Below, piece after piece: positions 3,907 through 13,524 of a DNA stretch of 30,006 nt (position 1 is its first letter; the number at the start of each line of letters is the position of its first letter). Source of the DNA: a virus; the IMG/VR virus record IMGVR_UViG_3300017991_000314, positions 1-30,006 of that record. One strand, written 5' to 3'. The position numbers and the translations under genes were made by a program. The notes below the pieces were generated by a model. That model saw only the letters and a program-made list of their open reading frames with translations. It was not told where the DNA came from and ran no database searches.

Positions 3907-3920
3907 TCGAAAGGAGTCCG

Positions 3921-5869: not shown

Positions 5870-6060
5870 GATAGGCTCCTTTCTCTCCGGGTCAGCTCCA
5901 TGGCTGCATAGTGGACCTCGTCCGCGTAGTATCCGGCGTTCGGTCCCTCGGGCATGGCGTCGCGGGCCTGGCCGGCGTCCTTGATGATATAGCGGAGCTC
6001 CGCGTCCGTCTTCGTCTTCAGGCTCTTCTGATAGGCTCCGTGGTTCATGGTCTTCTTCAT
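5866..6060 (-). CDS. Small hypothetical phage protein (64 aa)
   Basis: Not recognised. A 64-residue protein with a helical pattern (DAELRYIIKDAGQARDAM, then YYADEVHYAAMELTRR). The start is clear: ATG preceded by AAAGGAGACGACG in the shared leader. It is the first gene of a two-gene unit from promoter 6092-6122, overlapping the next gene by four bases. Confidence 0.7.
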   Translation of the reverse strand: MKKTMNHGAYQKSLKTKTDAELRYIIKDAGQARDAMPEGPNAGYYADEVHYAAMELTRRERSLS

Positions 6061-6091: not shown

Positions 6092-6122
6092 TATTAATAT
6101 CGGCAGCCGAGGCCCCGGACTT
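6092..6122 (-). promoter_or_regulatory. Leftward promoter, AAGT-N14-GCCGATA type
   Basis: Minus strand: AAGT at 6122-6119 and GCCGATATTAATA ending at 6092, then TAAGTGAGGAA. The 25-base span is kept. It serves the 5866-6060 and 5540-5869 genes and begins right after the terminator of the noncoding unit. Confidence 0.7.
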
Positions 6123-6137
6123 TAATCCAGGACCAGG

Positions 6138-6185
6138 AAAAATAAAAAAAATTCTCCTGGCCAGTAGAATTCTACTGCTCAGTGG
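6138..6185 (-). terminator. Palindromic hairpin terminator of the small RNA unit
   Basis: CAGTAGAATTCTACTG at 6162-6177 is a perfect 16-base palindrome. Flanking AATTC and GAATT plus CTG and CAG segments extend the stem with small internal loops down to a minus-strand run of eight T and ATTTTT. It differs from the GCCCTGGGGC terminators nearby. Confidence 0.65.
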
Positions 6186-6320
6186 AATTAGGGATCTGTT
6201 AGGGTCTACTCGGCACGGTCCTGCTATTCTCCGGGGGGCCCTCGCTTCCCCGAGTATGGTGCTTTGTTTCCGCCGGGCACTCCGCTTTCCGCCGCTCTCG
6301 ATTTGTCACTCCCCTCGCTG
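6138..6320 (-). ncRNA. Candidate small RNA transcription unit
   Basis: A promoter of the recurring type (6326-6352) points left, and about 180 bases later there is a hairpin plus T-run (6138-6185), with no convincing ORF between. The transcript can form ACTCGG/CCGAGT and GTGC/GCAC stems. The only reading frame is a 36-codon GTG-started one whose GTG directly abuts GAGGGGA, too close for normal initiation. An sRNA is the simplest reading, but a tiny peptide is not excluded. Confidence 0.5.
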
Positions 6321-6325
6321 GTATA

Positions 6326-6352
6326 CTTATCGGCAGCGCCGGCTCTTGACTT
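6326..6352 (-). promoter_or_regulatory. Leftward promoter of the small RNA unit
   Basis: Minus strand: AAGT at 6352-6349 then GCTGCCGATAAGTATA, with the invariant 25-base AAGT-to-GATA span, followed by CCAGCGAGGGGA, the same initial-transcript motif as protein-coding units. Confidence 0.65.
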
Positions 6353-6360
6353 GATAGAGA

Positions 6361-6407
6361 AAATAAAAAAAAAAAACGGCCCCGAGAAGGTTCCCCTCCC
6401 CAGGACC
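6361..6407 (-). terminator. Rho-independent terminator
   Basis: The minus-strand stem GGTCCTGGGGAG (6407-6396) pairs over 12 positions, including G-U, with CTTCTCGGGGCC (6389-6378) around a six-base loop, followed by 12 T. It ends the 6647-6934 / 6420-6572 unit. Confidence 0.85.
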
Positions 6408-6419
6408 GCCGAAAGGAGA

Positions 6420-6572
6420 TTATGTCAAGCGATCCAGGAGCGGCACTCGATCCCTGGGCAGGGTTCCGTCGCCCAGGAGGGCCCCGTCCACCAGCTCCAG
6501 CAGGAGCTCGTCCAGGACGTCGTCCTCGACCGCCTCGGCTGCTTCCTTCAGGTCTTCCAGGTACTGGCTCAT
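6420..6572 (-). CDS. Small acidic hypothetical protein (50 aa)
   Basis: Not recognised. The start is put at 6572, where ATG follows GGAGGACGAT. An in-frame ATG at 6650 would overlap the upstream stop as ATGA and give 76 residues, but it lacks a matched RBS and would place a 12-bp hairpin inside the gene. The 50-residue product is acidic and leucine-rich (DDVLDELLLELVDGALLG) and probably forms an amphipathic helix. Confidence 0.55.
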   Translation of the reverse strand: MSQYLEDLKEAAEAVEDDVLDELLLELVDGALLGDGTLPRDRVPLLDRLT

Positions 6573-6959: not shown

Positions 6960-6986
6960 ATTATCGGCAGCCAGGACCAGGAACTT
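6960..6986 (-). promoter_or_regulatory. Leftward promoter, AAGT-N14-GCCGATA type
   Basis: Minus strand: AAGT at 6986-6983 and GCTGCCGATAATGATA, 25-base span. Directly upstream is the 13-base block TTATGCAAGAAAC (plus strand, 6986-6998), also found at 11158-11170 where it supplies a TTGCAT -35 box. No -10 box is properly spaced for it here. Confidence 0.65.
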
Positions 6987-7027
6987 TATGCAAGAAACTT
7001 TTTTATTTTGTTAGGTGGATTTTAGGC

Positions 7028-7063: not shown

Positions 7064-7684
7064 ATGAGAAAGCTGATAGCGATCTTTTTACTTCTGGCGA
7101 CTGGCTGCTGCATGTTCGGAATCGGGCGAAGCAATGTTCAAAGGGCCGCGGATTGTCCCTGGCAGCTGGCCGGCAGCGGTACTTCCTGGCCGTATCGGTG
7201 CACGTGGTCAGAAGACCGCCAGGCCTTCGAGGTCCTCATGCTGACCGCCTTCCACGTGGTCGCCGGCTGGGAGGGCCCGATCACCGCCTCGCACCGCGAC
7301 GGCCGTCTCCTGGTTGGGGAGATCCTCGACCGTCACCCCACGGAGGACGCCGCCAGAATTCTCTTCCTCAGCTCCGAGCCCGTCGACGTGATCCTGCTGG
7401 ACTTCCAGCCGCTGAAGTATGGCGAGCGGATCACGGTCCCAGGATACCAGGGCATGGAACGCCCTTACATCTTCGAGGGCTTCGCGTCCGGTCCAGACCA
7501 GATCGGGGTTGATATGTGGGGAGGCGGATCCGGGAGCCCAGTGCTTGACGAGGACGGCCATGCTCGCGCCCTGGTCACGGCGATCTCTTGCGTCATGCCG
7601 GCACCCATGCAGCGGATTTACATCTATCACCATTGTCAGGTCCTGCCCTTGAGCAGGCTCGCGGAGTGGATATGCTCAGAGTAA
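7064..7684 (+). CDS. Trypsin-like serine protease, probable lipoprotein
   Basis: A 206-residue protein with an N-terminal export signal (MRKLIAIFLLLATGCC; a weak lipobox at Cys15/16) followed by a chymotrypsin-fold protease core. The catalytic triad is visible as TAFHVVAG (His64), VDVILLDF (Asp108) and GGGSGSPVLD (Ser156). It should cut proteins outside the cytoplasmic membrane, probably membrane-anchored. ATG is preceded by no Shine-Dalgarno site and lies seven bases after the -10 box. It is one of only three rightward genes, with a sigma70-like promoter unlike its neighbours, so it resembles a moron (an accessory gene expressed on its own). The target is unknown; surface modification or superinfection exclusion are guesses. 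Confidence 0.8.
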   Translation: MRKLIAIFLLLATGCCMFGIGRSNVQRAADCPWQLAGSGTSWPYRCTWSEDRQAFEVLMLTAFHVVAGWEGPITASHRDGRLLVGEILDRHPTEDAARILFLSSEPVDVILLDFQPLKYGERITVPGYQGMERPYIFEGFASGPDQIGVDMWGGGSGSPVLDEDGHARALVTAISCVMPAPMQRIYIYHHCQVLPLSRLAEWICSE

Positions 7685-13508: not shown

Positions 13509-13524
13509 TAATTCTTTTTTATTT

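Follow-up and report, generated by a model that had tools for sequence, protein, structure and literature searches.

Which product, if any, is made from a stretch of phage DNA that carries a promoter and a terminator with no convincing gene between them? The question is raised by a locus on the minus strand of a linear IMG/VR virus record of 30006 bases (G+C 59%), which was analysed over its whole length and is called the window here. The initial annotation had read the locus as a phage-encoded small RNA with its own promoter and terminator. To our knowledge, the small RNAs known from virulent phages are few, and for even fewer has a role been established.

The record is probably a fragment of a phage genome. 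Its genes lie mostly on the minus strand and include those for a DNA polymerase, a primase, a Dda-like helicase, an RNA ligase, RtcB, an exonuclease, a metallophosphoesterase and a sliding-clamp protein. At 53-54% identity, the DNA polymerase resembles those of Pseudomonas and Bordetella phages, including PaMx11 and MW2, both of which belong to Mesyanzhinovviridae; judged by the sequence of this protein, the phage is distantly allied to that family. The nearest relative found (L030/L033) has a DNA polymerase of 84% identity. A tRNA-Pro elsewhere in the window was the sole hit of a tRNA and tmRNA search, and no sigma-70 region 2 or 4 was found in the window, itself a fragment. Two further proteins were noted: one with a trypsin-like peptidase domain (Trypsin_2, 3.7e-10) at 7064-7684 on the plus strand, surrounded by minus-strand genes, and a short radical-SAM-like protein at 405-983 on the minus strand, with a score under the Pfam cut-off.

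Architecture of the locus

Read along the minus strand, the locus consists of the terminator of the upstream unit (6410-6365), a promoter (6354-6327), about 130 nt without a convincing gene and a hairpin (6189-6150). The end of the T-run is separated by 14 bases from the next promoter (6124), which serves a 64-aa gene at 6060. With a strong terminator directly before it and another promoter directly after it, the unit does not serve as the leader or the trailer of a neighbour. Transcription is predicted to begin at about 6319, a start base placed by the usual distance to the -10 element. At the level of sequence, the locus thus has a promoter and a terminator, is insulated by the flanking terminator and promoter, and lacks a convincing ORF. 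Its features and the sites of the promoter set, all on the minus strand, are as follows.

6365..6410, minus: strong G+C-rich terminator of the upstream unit, which insulates the small-RNA promoter
6327..6354, minus: sigma-28-like promoter of the small-RNA unit, TCAAGT-N14-GCCGATAA (from pattern and leave-one-out score)
6313..6319, minus: predicted transcript start and shared first bases AGCGAGG (from the alignment of eight promoters)
6144..6319, minus: predicted stand-alone RNA of ~175 nt without a convincing ORF (from promoter, terminator and ORF analysis)
6199..6309, minus: 36-codon GTG frame, probably no gene; the only sizeable minus-strand ORF
6138..6189, minus: intrinsic terminator, with interrupted stem 6189-6150, palindrome 6177-6162 and T-run
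6097..6124, minus: sigma-28-like promoter of the downstream two-gene unit (6060-5866, 5869-5540)
6961..6988, minus: sigma-28-like promoter of the upstream two-gene unit
1342, 1980, 2601, 3847, 5524, 6123, 6353 and 6987, minus: sigma-28-like promoters with invariant spacing

Every element named in the initial annotation is present, at coordinates that were correct within a few bases. The stand-alone transcription unit that it proposed is supported. The locus has its own terminator, and its promoter is one of the set of eight. That the promoter is of the neighbours' type was likewise confirmed; the type, which had been left unnamed, is described here as sigma-28-like.

A set of sigma-28-like promoters

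The promoter is composed of TCAAGT (6354-6349), a 14-base spacer and GCCGATAA (6334-6327). The pattern MAAGT-N14-(G/T)CCGATA is found at eight sites of the window, each of them on the minus strand, against 0.03 expected per shuffled window, and the same elements were absent from the window at the other spacers from 8 to 21. With a leave-one-out score of 23.8 bits, a level that no site outside the set of eight reaches on either strand, the small-RNA promoter is clearly beyond chance. The remaining seven promoters belong to protein units, and the eight are predicted to control small gene cassettes of the phage.

The likeness extends into the transcribed sequence. Aligned on the eight promoters, the small-RNA unit has AGCGAGG at the predicted start, and AGYGAGG stands at the expected start point after five of the seven others. 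Beyond these first bases the protein units go on to the ribosome-site motif CGAAAGGAG and a start codon, whereas the small-RNA unit does not; on the minus strand of the window the motif occurs seven times, mostly a short distance ahead of a gene start. A shared initial transcribed sequence, TAATANNAGYGAGG, was noted behind promoters, at 1960, 2581, 3827, 5504 and 6103 on the minus strand. CGAAAGGAG is also found on the plus strand. One copy, at 6410-6424, precedes an ATG and runs antisense to the last part of the upstream unit; another is at 3908. These copies may be due to chance or may be antisense pairing sites.

Weaker sites of the same promoter type form a divergent pair at 13509 (minus) and 13524 (plus). 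The same pair is found in L033 (15887-15901), where the TAAA and CCGATAA elements are kept and the sequence between them has changed, which provides footprint evidence for the promoters. A further relative, L041, has AGCGACGAGA at the position of the shared first transcribed bases. No such promoters were found in 50 kb each of Bordetella phage MW2 and Pseudomonas phage PaMx11.

The elements resemble those recognized by flagellar-type sigma factors. The E. coli sigma-28 (FliA) promoter is TAAAGTTT-N11-GCCGATAA (PMC2859248), and the SigD promoter is TAAA-N15-GCCGATAT (PMC5200910). The FliA/SigD -10 element GCCGATAW is matched by seven of the eight phage sites, the remaining one being TCCGATAT. 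For the -35 element TAAA, four sites have TAAAGT and the other four, the small-RNA promoter among them, have TCAAGT. The gap between TMAA and GCCGATAW is 16 nt in all eight sites, in contrast to 15 in the FliA/SigD consensus. Since the gap exceeds that of the published consensus by one base and four sites carry TCAAGT, we use only the label 'sigma-28-like'. Our literature search brought up no phage described as having a set of sigma-28 promoters, although such reports may exist. The promoter set is probably a more interesting feature than the small RNA itself and the first to follow.

Terminator of the small-RNA unit

The stem of the terminator spans 6189-6150 with interruptions and is topped by a perfect 16-bp palindrome, CAGTAGAATTCTACTG (6177-6162); a T8-A-T5 tail follows. 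With a folding energy of -16.4 kcal/mol and a z of -4.1 relative to shuffles, this terminator is real. It was absent from the list of an automated terminator scan, presumably on account of its A+T-rich, interrupted stem. The terminators that precede other promoters of the set (11185, 6376, 3876, 2632 and 2000) are G+C-rich and stronger, with energies between -20.5 and about -31 kcal/mol; a value of -37.9 kcal/mol for the best segment at 2000 includes the contribution of a second hairpin upstream. The earlier remark that the terminator differs from the others was therefore right: an A+T-rich, interrupted stem stands against G+C-rich neighbours. The minus-strand terminators at 2000, 2632 and 3876 are alike, with a repeated CCCTGGGGC, and in each case a promoter of the set comes no more than about 20-30 bases later.

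Folding, pairing and relatives of the RNA

The predicted RNA as a whole folds like shuffled sequences (z about -0.1 to -0.3), and its body shows no gain in stability over shuffles and may even fold less well (z +1.5). The 5' part is purine-rich and weakly structured. A search for antisense matches, which had been proposed as a check, gave no enrichment over shuffles when run on 35 phage gene starts (mean -35.1 versus -35.6 +/- 1.3 kcal/mol). The best of the 35, the exonuclease start (p 0.02), was rejected as a target, as one such value is expected by chance. Rfam 15 covariance models, applied with gathering and permissive thresholds, had no match at the locus up to E = 5.

Searches for DNA similarity among phages and plasmids returned nothing significant at the locus, and exact patterns built from the 5' part of the RNA and from the palindrome found nothing in IMG/VR. 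Searches with the neighbouring clamp and exonuclease proteins yielded no relative spanning the locus, and none covering it was found among L033, L049 and L037/L041; the L033 contig stops inside RtcB and misses the locus by about 3.5 kb, and that of L037/L041 ends among its own promoter cassettes. The 64-aa neighbour led to 20 loci, three of which (L004, L006 and L008) were inspected at the matching place and showed no such small-RNA unit upstream; L004 and L006 carry TAAAG...CGATA sites there. Promoter-pattern scans identified one true relative, L037/L041 (99.4% identical to each other), and within IMG/VR the promoter -10 with the TAATANNAGYGA leader was confined to L037 and L041. In the genome collection, the strict promoter pattern had no match and a looser one had nine, in unrelated phyla.

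Alternative readings of the interval

The cassette could contain a very short protein gene, with the 36-codon GTG frame (or an 18-codon frame) translated behind a leader of only about 10 nt. The GTG frame, the longest on the minus strand, runs from 6309 to a stop at 6199 and exceeds most shuffles of the same sequence in length (p 0.015); an SD-like GAGGGGA abuts the GTG and pairs with the anti-SD at -8.0 kcal/mol. However, this run touches the start codon, whereas most neighbouring genes have AGGAG several bases upstream of theirs, and the frame has neither the CGAAAGGAG ribosome site nor any other that is correctly spaced. Its composition also argues against translation: the codon score of 0.07 bits/codon is below the 5th percentile (0.15) of gene segments, which average 0.56 +/- 0.24, and is reached by 21% of shuffles, while GC by codon position is 0.61/0.64/0.67, not the gene-like 0.61/0.40/0.80 of the window. 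No homologue was found in phage records or PHROGs. Judged by these sequence properties, the 36-codon frame is probably no gene and a peptide from it is unlikely; we regard a short protein as the product of the cassette as distinctly improbable. The initial annotation had seen no convincing ORF, which is borne out by the composition, the ribosome-site spacing and the homology search. It had also pointed to a conserved 36-codon GTG ORF with a ribosome-binding site as the observation that would speak against an RNA gene, and we found no such ORF.

A decayed gene cassette, in which promoter and terminator outlived the protein unit they once served and the transcript is without function, would account for a layout, promoter and first transcribed bases that are as in the protein units, for an RNA body without structure or target signal, and for the lack of known relatives. 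Against this, promoter and terminator are both intact, a state that would not be expected to last in the absence of selection, and the terminator is of another type than those of neighbouring protein units; decay is an unlikely explanation. The eight GGA triplets in 175 nt, together with the weak structure, would suit an RNA that acts as a protein-binding sponge, for instance of the CsrA/RsmA type. GGA is not enriched, however (shuffle mean 6.2, p 0.21), and 13% of same-strand 175-nt windows have as many. A CsrB/RsmZ-type sponge was rejected on these counts, and a sponge of any kind is very improbable. Equally slight is the chance that the locus works as DNA, with the palindrome (6162-6177) serving as operator to the downstream promoter while the interval is no more than a spacer. 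The palindrome is perfect, lies about 40 bp upstream of the -35 of the next promoter and is present as a single copy in the window; but it tops a longer hairpin that is followed by T8, as expected of a terminator, and a search that tolerated three mismatches found no second copy at the other promoters of the set.

Proposed function and comparison with known systems

We favor, with moderate confidence, the reading of the locus as a gene for a stand-alone, base-pairing phage small RNA. The sigma-28-like promoter would start the RNA at ~6319, and transcription would end at the unit's own intrinsic terminator, at ~6144, to give an RNA about 175 nt long that carries a 3' hairpin and U-tail of the kind held by Hfq-type chaperones. 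The RNA would then act on phage or host mRNAs in trans, through short stretches of base pairing, during the expression of the co-regulated accessory genes. That it is transcribed, stable, untranslated and base-pairing we infer from the anatomy of the unit alone, since structure, targets, GGA counts and Rfam gave no signal; the purine-rich, open 5' part, the 3' hairpin and the U-tail fit a base-pairing, chaperone-held small RNA. The phage sRNA of the initial annotation is thus the likeliest reading from anatomy, and its role a putative one.

If it is transcribed, the locus would be a clean and self-contained case of a phage small RNA whose promoter belongs to a defined class; through the promoter set, the expression of phage genes would be linked to a sigma factor of the flagellar type. 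We put forward only tentatively, and consider doubtful, a wider scheme in which the sigma-28-like promoters control accessory genes and one small RNA, their expression follows the flagellar state of the host or a phage-encoded sigma factor, and the small RNA is the regulatory arm.

The virulent Pseudomonas phage PAK_P3 produces two independent small RNAs, sRNA1 and sRNA2, of about 100 nt, which were detected by RNA-seq late in infection (PMC4933390). As described there, they are like the RNA proposed here in being small, intergenic, without an ORF and without an assigned function. They differ in that they were seen by RNA-seq, whereas ours is predicted from sequence, and in that the passages on them mention no sigma-28-like promoter, such as is present at our unit. 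PreS (LPR1) of lambda and VpdS of VP882 are phage small RNAs that are bound by Hfq and act on host or phage mRNAs (PMC12197685). They serve as our working model; Hfq dependence and effects on mRNAs have been shown for PreS and VpdS, and are a model only for the RNA described here. In Campylobacter, CjNC1 and CjNC4 are reported to be sigma-28-dependent non-coding RNAs, studied for flagellar assembly (PMC4626219); likened to our RNA by promoter type alone, they share a sigma-28-type promoter with it and are bacterial, not phage, RNAs. Set beside these systems, the locus is plausibly a candidate for a new phage small RNA of a general kind that is already known.
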